Source: an uncultured Polaribacter sp. | Lineage (GTDB): Bacteria; Bacteroidota; Bacteroidia; Flavobacteriales; Flavobacteriaceae | Reading direction: 5' to 3' | Length of the DNA stretch: 64,000 nt | Assembly: GCF_947497125.1 (NCBI RefSeq) | Contig: NZ_CANMFI010000007.1 | Coordinates: 1 to 64,000, forward strand | Shown here: one piece after another, positions 12,751 to 18,374 of the stretch | Layout: every line of letters starts with the position of its first letter | How positions within the stretch are numbered: the first letter of the stretch is position 1 | Notes under the pieces: generated by a model | Told to the model about the DNA's origin: nothing | The model's database searches: none | The model's input: the letters and a program-made list of their open reading frames with translations, nothing else | Position numbers and translations under genes: made by a program

Positions 12751-13446
12751 TTATATAGAAAAATAGCTTTCTAATTCTTGTAAAGTTGCTGCAGATGTTT
12801 CAATATCTTTTACTACGTTTCCTTTATCTAACACTACTATTCGTTCGCAAACTTCGGTTACATGACTTAAATCGTGACTAGAAACCAACAGGGTAATTTC
12901 TTTGTTTTCTGTTAATTCTTTTAAAATCTTTTTTAAGCGAATTTGTGTTGTAGGATCTAGGTTGGCAAAAGGTTCATCTAAAATTACTACCTTAGGATTG
13001 CCAATCAGTGCTGCTATAATTCCTGCTTTTTTCTGATTTCCCTTACTTAAATCTCTTAAATATTTCTTTTTCCCGATAATTTCACCATTAAAAAACTCCT
13101 CAAATTTTGCTACAAAACTGGTTACATCTGCTTTATTCATCCCTCGTAAATCACCTATAAACTCAAAATATTCTTCGGGTGTTAAGTAACCTATCAAAAA
13201 AGATTCATCAATAAAAGAACCGGTAAAGTTTTTCCAAGCTTCGCTTTGGTTTACTTGAATTTCATGATTTATAACCGAGCCTGTTGTTGGTCTAATTAAG
13301 TCTAATAATAGGTTAAAATAGGTTGTTTTTCCGGCACCATTATTACCAACCAACCCAAAAGATTGCCCTTTCGGAATTTCTAATGCATCGATCTGTAAAA
13401 CAGCAGTTTGTCCGTATTTTTTTGAAAGTTGTGTTGTTTGTATCAT
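12751..13446 (-). CDS. ABC transporter ATP-binding protein
   Basis: ATPase subunit of an ABC-2-like exporter. Walker A GNNGAGKTT (residues 34-42), signature LSKGNQKK (an LSGGQ variant), Walker B VVILDEPFANLDP and switch His in SSHDLSH are all present. 231 residues is normal. It starts 11 bp after the DUF5687 membrane gene, which must be its permease. Substrate unknown. Confidence 0.95.
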   Translation of the reverse strand: MIQTTQLSKKYGQTAVLQIDALEIPKGQSFGLVGNNGAGKTTYFNLLLDLIRPTTGSVINHEIQVNQSEAWKNFTGSFIDESFLIGYLTPEEYFEFIGDLRGMNKADVTSFVAKFEEFFNGEIIGKKKYLRDLSKGNQKKAGIIAALIGNPKVVILDEPFANLDPTTQIRLKKILKELTENKEITLLVSSHDLSHVTEVCERIVVLDKGNVVKDIETSAATLQELESYFSI

Positions 13447-13457
13447 TCTATTTTTTC

Positions 13458-14924
13458 TTAGTTTTCTTGTTTAAATGCATGAATCATTACGTATTTATTT
13501 GCAATGTATTTTTTTGTAATTGTAGCCATTAATTTTTGATGAAAAGCAATGCCAATAAGCCCTAAAATACCCAAAGTAACGGTAGCAATTTCAAAACTTA
13601 CTAAATAATTAATTAATGCGAATAATCCCATTGGTAAAATCATTAGAGGCAACCCAATTAGCCATTGTACTGCACCAGTTCCCTGAAAATTAAAAGCCGC
13701 TTTTTCATCTAAATTTATTTTCTTTCTGTTAAAAGTACCTCCGTATAAAATTACATGCGTGTTTACACCAATGTTATAAATCATGGCAGCAAAGTGTACC
13801 GCTAAAATTTTCCATCCAAAGTAAACGTAAGGTATGCCTAGCACAAAAAGCAGTAAAACACTAATAGTCATAATTGTAAATTTCGATTTTAAATAACGTT
13901 CGTATTTAAAATTCTGACTCATTAACATGTTGTAATAACTGCTGTCCCAGGCAGGTATAAACTGACCAAAATTGATTAGAAAAGCACCTGTAGAAAAGAT
14001 ACCGACTAAAACAGGCATAAAATTCATTTTTGAATACATTGGGTTTGGATAGAAAAACAAACCATATAATAGGCCCATAGCTAACATCCAGATAGAAGAT
14101 TTTGTGCGTTTATTTCTCCACATTAAACGTAAATCGTTTTTAATAAATGGCGCTACATCGCCTAGTTTCTCTGTCCAAGATAAATCTGACGAGTTTGCTT
14201 CTTTTACTTTTGTAGCAATTGCTTCATCTAAATAAGCTTCGCTTTTTAATTTCTTAAAATTTAAAATGTACAGTATTACTAGTAAAATAACGCCTAATAC
14301 ACTATAGCTTGGGTTTTGGTATACAAAATTAAAACCTTGCCCAACAAACTGATGAATGTTGAATACATTGTAATATTGAATTAAAAATCCACCAATTATT
14401 ATGGTTAACAAAACACTAAATGCAATGTTACTTTTATTGATTAAAAAATTTAAAAAATTAGCAGATTGTATGAGTAAAAACATCAGGAATAACCAACCTA
14501 AGACACCATTTGTATGATACCCTTCTTTTATTAATACAAACGAAAAAGGCACATAAAAAAACAGGCTCATGATGTTAAAGAATGAGCAGGCCGATTTTGC
14601 CAATACAAAATGTACTATGTTGTTCTTTTTTATCGATAAAACTAATAGCGGTTTAATGTTTAATACCGGTAAATTTTGCATAAGGTATCTAAAAATTAAA
14701 TCTGCTGTTATTGCAAAAAGTAAAAAACTATTTACAAGAAATAACGGGTCTTTAGTTGGGTATTGTTTTTTTAGTAGATAAAATCCGCCAATGCCAAAAC
14801 CTGTAAACATTAAAACAAAGTAGAGTGCAAAAAAGGCTAAAAGTATTTTTACACCAATACTTTTACCAAATGCAGCAGAACGAAAAAATTGTTTCCATTC
14901 TAATTTTAAAAAATGTAAAACCAT
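13458..14924 (-). CDS. DUF5687 family membrane protein (ABC permease)
   Basis: 488 residues with about twelve hydrophobic segments and a cytoplasmic amphipathic start (LHFLKLEWKQFFRSAAFGKS), the hallmark of DUF5687 proteins in Bacteroidota. It lies directly upstream of an ABC ATPase gene on the same strand, so it is the membrane component of that transporter. The long loop near residues 230-270 is charged and probably cytoplasmic. Function is inferred from pairing. A PadR-led array of membrane proteins ends 202 bp upstream, so a physiological link is possible though not shown. Confidence 0.85.
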   Translation of the reverse strand: MVLHFLKLEWKQFFRSAAFGKSIGVKILLAFFALYFVLMFTGFGIGGFYLLKKQYPTKDPLFLVNSFLLFAITADLIFRYLMQNLPVLNIKPLLVLSIKKNNIVHFVLAKSACSFFNIMSLFFYVPFSFVLIKEGYHTNGVLGWLFLMFLLIQSANFLNFLINKSNIAFSVLLTIIIGGFLIQYYNVFNIHQFVGQGFNFVYQNPSYSVLGVILLVILYILNFKKLKSEAYLDEAIATKVKEANSSDLSWTEKLGDVAPFIKNDLRLMWRNKRTKSSIWMLAMGLLYGLFFYPNPMYSKMNFMPVLVGIFSTGAFLINFGQFIPAWDSSYYNMLMSQNFKYERYLKSKFTIMTISVLLLFVLGIPYVYFGWKILAVHFAAMIYNIGVNTHVILYGGTFNRKKINLDEKAAFNFQGTGAVQWLIGLPLMILPMGLFALINYLVSFEIATVTLGILGLIGIAFHQKLMATITKKYIANKYVMIHAFKQEN

Positions 14925-15126: not shown

Positions 15127-15834
15127 CTATAAGTTTTTTACCAACTTATATTCTGGGTAGGTTTCTAATAATAACTCTTCTGCTTTTTGTGGCATTAAAT
15201 AACTAGTAACATAAAATAGAATAACTACCATTGTTAATGATAAAGAAAGTAGTACTAACCAATGGGTTTCTAGATCGCTAAAAGAAACCTTAAAAGCATT
15301 TGCAGTGTTAAAAAAATTGATATACAAAAGACCAGAAAAACTGTTTTTGGTATCGCCAATCATTGCTTCTAATAAAAATATTTTTTCTTGCTCTTCTTTT
15401 TTCTTTTTTAATTTTTTTCTTGAAATAGTTTGTTTTGTTAAATCGAATACTGCCAGTATTAATAAAAGCCCAAAAAGAACATATTTAGAGTTCGGAATTT
15501 TTAAAACCCAGAAAAAAAGGAAAAAGATACCTAGTGTAGTTATAATTTTTGGCATAGTAAACCATTCTTTAAAAAAGCGCCACATTATATTTCTATAACG
15601 TTTGTTCATTTGTTTTTGTTTTGCTTCTACAACATCCATAAAACCGAAAACCCCAAACTTTTTAAATGATTTATCTCGTGCATCTTCAAATGATAAAAGT
15701 GGCTGTGCTTGCCAAATTTCTTCAATATCATTTGCTAAATGGTCTACCAATTCTGTCTGTACATCATAATGATACACAAAATGTTTTCTGGTGAATTTGT
15801 AAAGATTGTCTATTTGTAATGCTGTTAGTTTCAT
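15127..15834 (-). CDS. Membrane protein of the PadR-linked paralogue array (copy 4)
   Basis: Last and most diverged member (235 aa) of four tandem paralogues. The soluble N-terminal part carries Asp24, Glu28, Asp31, His32 and Glu38 at exactly the positions seen in the other three (TELVDH around 27-32). A basic stretch (MNKRYRNIMWRFFKEW) leads into four membrane segments from about residue 95. A second cytoplasmic Lys-rich loop (RKKLKKKKEEQEK) splits the helices. It overlaps copy 3 by 4 bp (ATGA), showing translational coupling. Function unknown; the layout resembles HAAS/DUF1700 proteins found beside PadR regulators. Confidence 0.85.
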   Translation of the reverse strand: MKLTALQIDNLYKFTRKHFVYHYDVQTELVDHLANDIEEIWQAQPLLSFEDARDKSFKKFGVFGFMDVVEAKQKQMNKRYRNIMWRFFKEWFTMPKIITTLGIFFLFFWVLKIPNSKYVLFGLLLILAVFDLTKQTISRKKLKKKKEEQEKIFLLEAMIGDTKNSFSGLLYINFFNTANAFKVSFSDLETHWLVLLSLSLTMVVILFYVTSYLMPQKAEELLLETYPEYKLVKNL

Positions 15835-16505
15835 ATGCTTTTCAATTTCAATTCCATATTTTTAATTTTTTCACTCGTATCTAAATGGACTAATATGCCT
15901 GCAAAAGAAAATATTGTATTTAAAACAGTAATTAAAAACCAAACAAATAAATGTGTGTCTTTTGATACAGGGATAAAACCATCTGGTTTTACAAACTGAA
16001 TAACCCCGTTTAAAATTAAGAAAGAGAAAAAAATATAAAAACTGCTATAGGTTAAGTGTCCTGATTTTCCTCTTTTTGAGAATTCTAATAAATACGAAAT
16101 AATACCAAAAATTATAGGTGTAAATAAAATTATTAGCGTAATTAATTTATAAACTTTTAAACTTGAGTACTTGTAAAAAATATAATAAGTTGTTACAAAT
16201 AGAATTATAAATACTAAAGATTTCAATTTTGTGAAAAGGTTTTTTATTTTTAAAAAATATAGTTTTTTCACAAAACTATTGATAGAGAATAGTCTTTGTT
16301 TTGTTAGTTGTTCAAAGTTACCATCCCAACCTAAAAATATAAATGAATTCATTACCGCATTTTTGAAATTTCCACCTAAATCAAGTCTTTTTTCTACATC
16401 TAAAACTACATGGTCTAACATTTCTAAACGAATGTCCCAATATTTTACCCCTTCGTTTTCTAAACGATGGTCTATGTATTGTATTTGCTCTTTTGTTAAT
16501 TCCAT
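15831..16505 (-). CDS. Membrane protein of the PadR-linked paralogue array (copy 3)
   Basis: 224 residues. The N-terminus MELTKEQ is shared with copies 1 and 2, followed by Asp24, Glu28, Asp31, His32 and Glu38 (LEMLDH at 27-32). A basic amphipathic region near 75-90 precedes four membrane segments (about 92-112, 118-138, 150-168, 182-203). It begins 2 bp after copy 2 and overlaps copy 4 by 4 bp. No known catalytic domain is evident. Confidence 0.85.
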   Translation of the reverse strand: MELTKEQIQYIDHRLENEGVKYWDIRLEMLDHVVLDVEKRLDLGGNFKNAVMNSFIFLGWDGNFEQLTKQRLFSINSFVKKLYFLKIKNLFTKLKSLVFIILFVTTYYIFYKYSSLKVYKLITLIILFTPIIFGIISYLLEFSKRGKSGHLTYSSFYIFFSFLILNGVIQFVKPDGFIPVSKDTHLFVWFLITVLNTIFSFAGILVHLDTSEKIKNMELKLKSI

Positions 16506-16507
16506 AC

Positions 16508-17173
16508 TTATAATGTAACTAAAGGATATAGCGTTCTTACTGTTTTTTTATTTTGATTATATACTGTATTTACAGACCATAATAAGAGTATAAGCATTAC
16601 ATAAATTGTTAACTGAATATTATTGTATAATGGGTTTGTGAAGCTTTCTTTATTTCTAAAAATAGTTAAAGTATTAAATAATATAATCATATTGTGTATA
16701 ATATGAAAAAGGGCATTGTTTAAGTTTAAAGCTAAAAATTTATTTTTCTTTTCCTTCCTTTTGATTAAAAAAGCGATCAGGTACAAAAACCCAATACCAG
16801 TTAGTACATAAAAGTAAAGTTCTTTATCATCAAATAGTTGCATTAATAGCTGTAAGCAATAAAATAAAGCTGCAGCAATAATTATTTTAGGCACTTTAAA
16901 AAAGGTAATAAAGTTCTTTAAAGATTGTTTGAAAAATCTTTTTTGTACCGATTTTGTTTTTTCTTTTAAAAGTCTGCTAAAACCTCTATCAGAAAAATTT
17001 CTGTGGATATTTTCTATTTCTTTTTTAAAATTTAAATCAGGGTTTTTATTTAATTTTTGTTCTAAAATATTTGCAAAATGATCTACTATTTCTGTTCTAA
17101 CATCATAGAATTTTATGCCACAAGCAAATATATAATTGTCTATCTGTAAATGTTGCTCTTTTGTTAATTCCAT
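16508..17173 (-). CDS. Membrane protein of the PadR-linked paralogue array (copy 2)
   Basis: 221 residues, same plan: MELTKEQ start, Asp24, Glu28, Asp31, His32, Glu38 (TEIVDH at 27-32), a basic stretch near residues 75-90 (KEKTKSVQKRFFKQ), then four membrane helices interrupted by a Lys/Arg-rich loop (IKRKEKKNK). It starts 3 bp after copy 1 and ends 2 bp before copy 3. Identity to its neighbours outside the N-terminus is low, so the duplications are old or quickly diverging. Confidence 0.85.
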   Translation of the reverse strand: MELTKEQHLQIDNYIFACGIKFYDVRTEIVDHFANILEQKLNKNPDLNFKKEIENIHRNFSDRGFSRLLKEKTKSVQKRFFKQSLKNFITFFKVPKIIIAAALFYCLQLLMQLFDDKELYFYVLTGIGFLYLIAFLIKRKEKKNKFLALNLNNALFHIIHNMIILFNTLTIFRNKESFTNPLYNNIQLTIYVMLILLLWSVNTVYNQNKKTVRTLYPLVTL

Positions 17174-17176
17174 AGT

Positions 17177-17830
17177 TTATGAAATTCTATTTTTTAATAT
17201 GGCTTCTTTATGTTTTTTGTAAAAGTGATTGCAGATTAATAAAGCACTAAACCCAGCACCTGTAAAGCTCGCAAACAAAGGGTTAACAAAACCATCCTTA
17301 TCATTAATACTATCTAAAAATGTGAGGATAACTAAAAAAATTACTCCTAAATATTGTGTTTTTAGAATAAACCTATAGGTAGATTTTACTTTAGTTTGTG
17401 TTGTTTTTAGAACCATATAAAGGATGTAGATTGTCGCTAAAACGGCAAGACTTCTAGTTAGAGTGCTAATTGCTTCTCCCATCTGATTTTCAACTTTAAA
17501 AGGTATTTTTTTAAATAAAATAAGAGGAAATATGTACGTAGCTAAATATATAAAGTAATATTTTTTAAATATTTTTTTAGCTTTTTTAACGACAATTTTT
17601 GATTCAGAAAACTGTAAACCAAAGTAAAAACTAGAAGTTTCTCTAAAGTGTTTTTCCCACCTAATTTTTACCATTATAAATGCCTCAGAAAAAGTATAAC
17701 CTTTTATTACAAGTGATTCAATATCAGAAATGATATGATCTAAAACTTCAATTTTTAAATCTATAAAATCGAATTTCTTTTCTTTTAGGTAGTTATCTAT
17801 TTGTAAGAGTTGCTCTTTTGTTAATTCCAT
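17177..17830 (-). CDS. Membrane protein of the PadR-linked paralogue array (copy 1)
   Basis: 217 residues: MELTKEQLLQIDNY start, then Asp24, Glu28, Asp31, His32 and Glu38 (IEVLDH at 27-32), a soluble region to about 85, and four membrane segments. It starts 1 bp after the padR stop, so regulator and target are expressed together. Proteins with a short helical prefix plus membrane helices beside PadR are known in Firmicutes as HAAS/DUF1700; whether this family is related needs a profile search. Confidence 0.85.
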   Translation of the reverse strand: MELTKEQLLQIDNYLKEKKFDFIDLKIEVLDHIISDIESLVIKGYTFSEAFIMVKIRWEKHFRETSSFYFGLQFSESKIVVKKAKKIFKKYYFIYLATYIFPLILFKKIPFKVENQMGEAISTLTRSLAVLATIYILYMVLKTTQTKVKSTYRFILKTQYLGVIFLVILTFLDSINDKDGFVNPLFASFTGAGFSALLICNHFYKKHKEAILKNRIS

Positions 17831-17831
17831 C

Positions 17832-18170
17832 TTATTCTAAACTAAATTTAGGATTCACCAATTGCTGCATGGTTCTTAAAAACTCTTGCATTTCTTCTAA
17901 CTTGTTGGCTGTTTCTTTGGTGCCATTTTCGGTTAGTTTGTAATATTTGCGTAATCTATTGCCCACTTTTGCAACCTCTACATCTAGCAACCCATCGGCT
18001 TCTAATTTGTGTAAAGCAGGGTATAAAGCTCCCTCTGTTATTTTAAGTTCACCTTTGGTTAATTCTTTTACGTGTTGTGTAATTTCGTAACCATACATTT
18101 TATCATTGCTTTCTAACAATTTTAAAATAATGGTTTGTAAAGACCCTTTGTATAATTTCTGATTTCCCAT
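17832..18170 (-). CDS. PadR family transcriptional regulator
   Basis: 112-residue winged-helix repressor of PadR subfamily 2. The sequence LYKGSLQTIILKLLE, then MYGYEI, then ITEGALYPALHKLEADGLL, then RKYYKLTENG is the standard PadR DNA-binding domain, followed by one C-terminal dimerisation helix. It is the first gene of a five-gene unit with the four membrane paralogues. Two palindromes 100-135 bp upstream are possible operators. Typical PadR proteins repress their own operon until a ligand or membrane stress signal releases them. Confidence 0.95.
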   Translation of the reverse strand: MGNQKLYKGSLQTIILKLLESNDKMYGYEITQHVKELTKGELKITEGALYPALHKLEADGLLDVEVAKVGNRLRKYYKLTENGTKETANKLEEMQEFLRTMQQLVNPKFSLE

Positions 18171-18270
18171 TTTTTTGGTGTGTAATCGTATAATTGTTTT
18201 TACTAGTAACTTACCTTATCTAAGCTTTTAGCTGAAGCAATCCATAATTTAAACGTATAGATTACTTCAT

Positions 18271-18327
18271 TTTAGACTGTCTAAAAAGACATTTTAAAAA
18301 TTGTCTATCCGACTCGCATCAAATATA
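18271..18327 (-). promoter_or_regulatory. Candidate promoter and operator of the padR operon
   Basis: A 15-bp perfect palindrome TTTAGAC-T-GTCTAAA lies at 18271-18285. A second, related inverted repeat AGACA/TGTCT lies at 18287-18306. Just upstream on the minus strand is a -7-like TATATTTG (18327-18320), which would start transcription near 18313, placing both palindromes right after the start as expected for a repressor. No good -33 element is seen, so the promoter part is tentative. Confidence 0.4.
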
Positions 18328-18374
18328 CATAATTTTTGTATGCATTGGTTTCTTATGTATTGTTTTTTAATAAA

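Follow-up and report, generated by a model that had tools for sequence, protein, structure and literature searches.

The 64,000-nucleotide stretch analysed here (the window; positions 1-64,000 of contig NZ_CANMFI010000007.1 from the uncultured Polaribacter sp. assembly GCF_947497125.1) carries a gene for a PadR family regulator followed by four tandem genes for membrane paralogues, and we refer to such paralogues downstream of padR as HX. PadR-linked HX genes form a real and widespread PadR-membrane module which we found in no paper searched. The padR-HX gene cluster probably represses itself, as judged from its sequences, and we consider it rather likely that regulator and membrane proteins constitute a self-contained loop in which PadR would dock on a conserved face of the HX prefix. 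Literature searches returned no paper on the HX family beyond those on HAAS itself and an expression study in Zobellia, and nothing on DUF5687, on "permease prefix domain" or on an autoregulated PadR-ABC (ATP-binding cassette) transporter in Flavobacteriaceae.

The padR-HX module and its five-residue motif

Two overlapping sets of loci were compared. The first comprises the best 80 of 490 confirmed relatives and for that reason leans to Polaribacter and its kin, although it includes Tenacibaculum, Winogradskyella, Cellulophaga, Lacinutrix, Lutibacter and Olleya; the second, of 99 stretches, also holds second places of some genomes. PadR preceded the HX genes, one to seven in number, at 77 of the 80 loci, counting L156, where a short open reading frame (ORF) lies between them, and the other three loci begin at contig ends. 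Among the 99 stretches, a padR gene on the same strand was located within 300 bp of HX in 93 and at 488 bp in one, three stop at a contig edge, and two, from one genus, had no PadR. The PadR-linked membrane module that an earlier note on this DNA had proposed is thus strongly supported. Fifteen loci of the first set contained one HX ORF, 25 two, 25 three, eight four, four five, two six and one seven, with a few split genes (L149, L150, L174) included in these counts. When 100 Flavobacteriaceae genera were sampled, 27 matched a profile of the four window copies at E 0.01, 25 of them at E 1e-9 or better and two weakly; across the phylum, 22 of 198 sampled genomes matched at E 0.001, and the loci fetched outside Flavobacteriaceae were mostly single PadR-HX pairs.

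Copies A to D of the window share only 20.0-30.4% pairwise identity, and, as the earlier note had observed, D24, E28, D31, H32 and E38 occupy identical residue numbers in all four. We determined the conservation of these residues in 209 of the 211 HX copies of the 80-locus set (79 last copies and 129 upstream ones). The fractions in last and upstream copies, respectively, were.99 and.97 for D24, 1.0 and 1.0 for E28, 1.0 and.99 for D31, 1.0 and 1.0 for H32, and 1.0 and.97 for E38, followed by F49 with 1.0 and.92. The five residues therefore do not vary freely but are 97-100% conserved, except that four changed in a genus without PadR, described below. Much of the prefix is conserved in last copies (e.g. 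Y23, Q26, N35, FKKFG), which is not the case in upstream copies; columns 60-63 read F-G-[IV]-F in the former and are variable in the latter, P not being among the commonest residues listed. Of the 172 HX ORFs in a more remote set, which partly overlaps the first, 139 showed the complete D-E-D-H-E when read by a script; the remainder consisted of single substitutions (mainly at D24 or E38, with E28 changed to D or N in remote ORFs), ORFs that were truncated or misread, and three genuine losses (L103, L290 and L108). From one motif count L057, which is cut at a contig end, was excluded; the motif of L055 is intact.

Single-protein, full-length AlphaFold2 models of copies A and D, with a mean predicted local distance difference test score of 93.5 and 93.3, respectively, placed the motif on the second of three prefix helices (5-17, 23-43 and 49-58 in copy D), where residues 24, 28, 31 and 38 would share one helix stripe, given their spacing. 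Both models showed four long helices after the prefix, and residues 66-95 of the four copies carry a net charge of +4 to +8. Accordingly, the order of prefix, basic helix and four membrane segments put forward in the earlier note agreed with charge and models, whereas hydropathy gave four peaks in A, B and C but only three in D.

The two stretches without PadR (L103 and L290) come from genomes G152 and G535, two species of one genus, and lie inside contigs. A search of each genome with this PadR gave one match, 38 and 40% identical, and that of G152 belongs to another system, since it lies 137 bp from a HAAS match. The palindrome described in the next section was at background level in both (3 vs 2 and 0 vs 0). 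Their HX proteins carry the changes E28L, D31K/R, H32D and E38A/V and retain D24, F49, G61, G64 and F65, with 48 of 65 prefix residues and 100 of the 170 remaining ones identical between the two species. Both genomes keep DUF5687, the probable exporter permease that often follows HX, elsewhere in the genome; four others (G060, G116, G163 and G256) lack DUF5687 at E 1e-5 yet possess PadR and an intact motif. Hence, in this single event, the motif follows PadR and not the exporter. This comparison suggests that the acidic-histidine patch is where HX proteins touch PadR.

For a phylogeny we took 85 copies belonging to 20 loci, mostly picked for their multiple copies, and midpoint-rooted the tree for drawing only. 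All 20 last copies, together with seven next-to-last ones, fell on one side of a 100/100 branch, and the last gene of the treed loci was always of a conserved type, the anchor. Window copies A, B and C fell in three other sets with other species, supported by 100/100, 99/80 and 98/87. Because the copies group with those of other species, the array is ancient and ordered and did not arise by recent expansion; the duplication invoked in the earlier note holds in deep time but not as a recent event, since the four copies belong to four old groups shared across species.

A palindrome upstream of padR

Analysis of 171 padR-upstream regions (76 from the 80-locus set and 95 others, the two sets overlapping) revealed the palindrome CATAA-N5-TTATG, common to 97 of them, with the extended form TATRCATAA-N5-TTATGYATA. 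Allowing up to three mismatches, it was present in 156 of the 171 regions (74/76 and 82/95), compared with about 1.1 of 171 after shuffling. Pairs of sites offset by exactly 15 bp were found in 63/76 and 55/95 regions, and TANNTTTG, the Bacteroidota -7 promoter element, stood at the end of a site in 63/76 and 51/95. The two window sites, with three mismatches in the first and two in the second of those given in Table 1, are outside the 97 counted, lie just past a hairpin and T run, and are followed by TATATTTG; by place and by the 15-bp offset, this predicted operator matches those of the relatives.

Across 20 HX-containing genomes, 26 places matched the palindrome with at most one mismatch, and by their coordinates 25 of these lie beside padR-HX, the single other one being in G001 (contig C12). 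At least one such place occurred in 18 of the 20 genomes and none in three HX-less genomes; a control with the reversed pattern gave four. With up to three mismatches, we found 23 places in the window's own genome (G000) against 19 for the reversed pattern, and 13 against 19 and 35 against 32 in two relatives. A wider regulon was consequently discarded, as counts this close to those of the reversed pattern give no evidence for further PadR targets. Another candidate operator, the perfect palindrome TTACTAGTAA at 18200-18209, was dropped because it is present in 1 of the 171 regions. Between the promoter-like box and padR, the window holds a leader of about 140 bp (18170-18320), which matched no Rfam model at the gathering score.

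Proposed regulatory loop and its alternatives

In the loop that we favour, PadR would repress its own operon by binding the double operator, which would cover the promoter. The operon would produce HX proteins with a prefix, taken as cytosolic, that exposes the acidic and histidine face on helix 2, and with four membrane helices that vary from copy to copy. Through D24-E28-D31-H32-E38 the prefix would contact PadR, as the loss of the motif along with PadR supports, and a signal felt by the membrane part might then change the amount of PadR that is free to repress. Several distinct membrane parts would let several inputs act on one repressor, with the HX proteins themselves and usually a DUF5687-ABC exporter as output. 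The effect could run either way, HX capturing PadR (induction) or assisting it (silencing). This proposal is built on the gene linkage, the conserved palindrome and its place, the constraint on the motif and the joint absence in one genus, and the fusion of the HX prefix to MacB/FtsX permeases directly behind padR in L092 and L093 also speaks for it. More speculatively, and with less confidence than we place in the loop as such, the motif may be a dedicated PadR-docking face, nearly identical in up to seven sensors with different membrane parts that compete for a single, one-target repressor, which would make the array a multi-input device.

Several observations weigh against this loop. The loss of the motif amounts to one evolutionary event (one genus, two species), and in L108 an anchor copy (L108:8024-8725) has H32 changed to L with PadR nearby, although the three sister copies preceding it keep E28, D31, H32 and E38. 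Since the palindrome was derived from the very regions that also served for its count, only the rest of each genome provides an independent test. Neither the window's own genome nor G014 has a site with at most one mismatch; the window sites, at two and three mismatches, are some 150 bp upstream of the padR start, compared with 20-60 bp in most relatives, and their two matches are not significant for the window alone, as 13 of 100 shuffles also reach two.

LmrR-type PadRs sense small molecules themselves. It is conceivable, though in our view rather improbable, that PadR does so here too, that HX proteins are effectors protecting the envelope, and that the motif serves HX-HX assembly. Tandem heteromers would suit a membrane coat, and according to the available part of PMC6624303, overproduction of the Listeria DUF1700 protein Lmo0600, encoded behind LltR, impairs growth at low temperature. 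On six polysaccharides, Zobellia padR ZGAL_1768 and the gene after it, a candidate HX, are both induced by a factor of more than 8, and the adjacent paaE goes down (PMC5613140, as far as available); this co-induction fits effectors and is a possible expression clue for padR-HX. An assembly motif, however, should not vanish with PadR while the prefix stays conserved, as it did in that one event.

A role of HX as an accessory subunit of the DUF5687-ABC exporter, with the acidic face docking on its ATPase or permease, is less probable still. DUF5687 follows HX in 65 of the 80 loci, and elsewhere the HX prefix is fused to FtsX-type permeases (L092 and L093), but the motif was lost in G152 and G535 despite their DUF5687 and is intact in the four genomes devoid of it at E 1e-5; moreover, 15 of the 80 loci have no DUF5687 after HX, although it may be encoded elsewhere, as in 9 of 13 genomes searched. 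The earlier note had left open metal binding or a charged interface for the five residues. We prefer the charged interface because the motif was lost where PadR was lost, a single event, and consider a metal-sensing HX very improbable: Asp, Glu and His are indeed spaced along one helix (23-43), but a one-helix stripe with a single His would be a weak metal site, and the related permease prefix domain 1 (see below) holds, by eye, D at the D31 position in only 1 of 8 prefixes.

The window locus is summarised in Table 1. Its five-gene tandem layout, with gaps of 1, 3, 2 and -4 bp from padR through copies A to D, was confirmed from the ORF coordinates, as was the ABC exporter downstream on the same strand, whose genes (DUF5687 permease and ABC ATPase) begin 202 bp after copy D.

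Table 1. Features of the padR-HX locus in the window
Feature	Position	Strand	Basis or remark
padR, PadR family regulator, 112 aa	17832-18170	minus	Pfam PF03551, 75.4 bits, E 3.6e-21 (above the curated score of 27)
HX copy A, 217 aa	17177-17830	minus	Prefix helices 5-17, 23-42, 47-62, then four long helices
HX copy B, 221 aa	16508-17173	minus	Motif at D24-E28-D31-H32-E38
HX copy C, 224 aa	15831-16505	minus	Motif at D24-E28-D31-H32-E38
HX copy D, 235 aa, conserved anchor type closing the array	15127-15834	minus	Motif on helix 23-43
DUF5687 family protein, probable ABC-type permease	13458-14924	minus	Pfam PF18940, 602.6 bits (above the curated score of 33)
ABC ATPase, permease partner	12751-13446	minus	ORF; Walker A GNNGAGKTT by eye; adjacent in homologous loci
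Double PadR operator, predicted	18324-18361	minus	23-bp sites 18339-18361 and 18324-18346, overlapping, offset 15 bp
Promoter-like box TATATTTG	18320-18327	minus	Fits TANNTTTG; overlaps the operator end

Upstream of the operator lies a ribonucleotide-reductase-like gene, behind which stand the hairpin and T run (both by eye). In the three loci inspected for this (L168, L162 and L044), a divergent paaE-like gene, recognised by eye as resembling an FAD/[2Fe-2S] reductase, precedes padR, and a divergent gene of similar length does so in many other loci. Tenacibaculum loci (e.g. L157, L160 and L177) lack DUF5687 after their HX genes; the last of these stops 1 to about 100 bp short of an rsmI-like gene (by eye) in convergent orientation, and in G187 a DUF5687 gene lies about 15 kb away. 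DUF5687 is split into two frames in L131, L150 and L191, and in L150 so is HX; we read these as decaying or mis-assembled copies. A search of plasmid DNA gave no match.

Comparison with known systems

No Pfam or NCBIfam model matched copies A to D above its cut-off, and weak Pfam matches (STING_TM, MARVEL, CPP1-like and others), below cut-off and not common to the copies, were rejected and are taken as composition effects of membrane helices. A PDB profile search gave nothing meaningful (best E 0.034), and a fold search with the anchor model gave 23 Foldseek matches, the best at E 3.6. VIA Z reached at most 7.0, on the membrane helices of the full-length model; the DUF1048 structure 2O3L is not among the fold-search rows listed, which for full-length models are dominated by membrane helices.

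The kinship with HAAS/DUF1700 suggested in the earlier note failed the direct profile test and is supported only through permease prefix domain 1 (perm_prefix_1, NF038403). In hhalign comparisons, the HX prefix matched eight perm_prefix_1 prefixes with a probability of 91.4% for 12 remote HX and 59.9% for all HX, with E28 and H32 in register, whereas 54 segments of other gene families gave at most 1.1% and 200 column shuffles at most 1.9% for all HX and, for remote HX, 44.0% once and then 2.2%. perm_prefix_1 in turn matched five DUF1700 prefixes at 78.6% (shuffles at most 4.4%), and PspC-type HAAS matched DUF1700 at 97.7%. Two results tell against the kinship: HX gave only 0.3-0.5% with the five DUF1700 prefixes, so that the direct match fails, and perm_prefix_1 gave 10.4% with PspC-type HAAS; HX with PspC-type HAAS gave 0.4-1.5%. 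A Pfam scan of copies A to D showed no HAAS match at E 10, and PF22564/DUF1700 was not among the matches listed (25 of 88 families) for 50 HX members, three of which matched DUF1129 (best 0.019), which Ravi et al. include in HAAS in the available part of PMC11237479. Direct HAAS/DUF1700 membership was therefore rejected, given the missing Pfam match, hhalign values of 0.3-1.5% and the absence of GxP. Since HX-perm_prefix_1 and perm_prefix_1-DUF1700 similarities are high and HX-DUF1700 similarity is low, HX joins HAAS only via perm_prefix_1; no profile search placed the prefix in an unrelated family. As the best reading of these sequences, HX-PadR would be a HAAS-like signalling module, without HX being filed as a HAAS member. 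The window's own genome also encodes a PspC-domain protein (L111:4219-5871, minus strand; contig C3 of G000) with a HAAS domain that exceeds the cut-off of PF22564 at 34.4 bits, and as this separate protein has its own PadR just upstream, two PadR-membrane systems coexist there.

With NF038403 proteins, HX shares E28 and H32 in register, a similar prefix tail and a nearby PadR, located in the flanking 1.5 kb at 6 of the 8 perm_prefix_1 loci compared; by eye, their prefixes have E at the E28 position in 8/8 and H at the H32 position in 7/8. In contrast to them, the window prefix sits on separate small membrane proteins and not on a permease, the window proteins do not match NF038403, and HX prefixes stay below its curated 30 bits (12.6 bits over residues 23-64 for L092, no match for L093). 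In L092 and L093, from another Bacteroidota family, the HX prefix heads an 898- or 903-residue MacB_PCD-FtsX permease directly behind padR (L092:6802-9498 and L093:6700-9411). These permeases are ADOP-like: they match TIGR03434 with 306.8 and 299.9 bits over residues 87-898 and 92-903, but below its 622.3-bit cut-off, and the window has no such fusion. An HX-type prefix also occurs behind padR on a protein with matches to the type IX secretion motor families GldL_N and GldM_1st (L094:6110-7360, minus strand), with a weaker instance in L109:6081-6689.

A PadR operator described earlier reads ATGT-N8-10-ACAT (PMC3506622, available part); the halves of the palindrome found here face the opposite way, ACAT-N9-ATGT. 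The Listeria LltR-Lmo0600 locus resembles the window in that padR is followed at once by a gene for a prefix with membrane helices, and an lltR mutant shows joint upregulation of lltR and the genes downstream, as reported in the accessible text of PMC6624303. DUF1700 membrane proteins likewise lie directly behind PadR in the Bacillus and Kozakia plasmid loci L300 and L302, but HX has no direct profile similarity to them.

The closest parallel is HAAS-PadR, which Ravi et al. (2024; PMC11237479, in its available part) put forward as a counterpart to two-component signalling, arguing from genomic context and structure and reporting no measured contact there. That proposal and the HX loci have in common a standalone PadR nearby, a prefix of three helices at the N-terminus of varied membrane moieties (FtsX/MacB permeases and four-transmembrane domains among them), and a proposed signal transfer from prefix to PadR. 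HX differs in having FG with no P in place of GxP, in its own motif D-x3-E-x2-D-H-x5-E, and in arrays where as many as seven diverged copies stand in tandem. It would thus represent a compact HAAS-PadR-like case, with one regulator, one palindrome, one operon and an almost invariant five-residue face, in a protein family present in 25 of 100 sampled Flavobacteriaceae genera. Owing to this compactness, and to the joint absence of regulator, palindrome and face in one genus, the claimed contact between prefix and PadR could be tested with just two proteins and a single DNA fragment. If the multi-input reading is true, the HX array would be an operon-sized alternative, in Bacteroidota, to a set of two-component systems.

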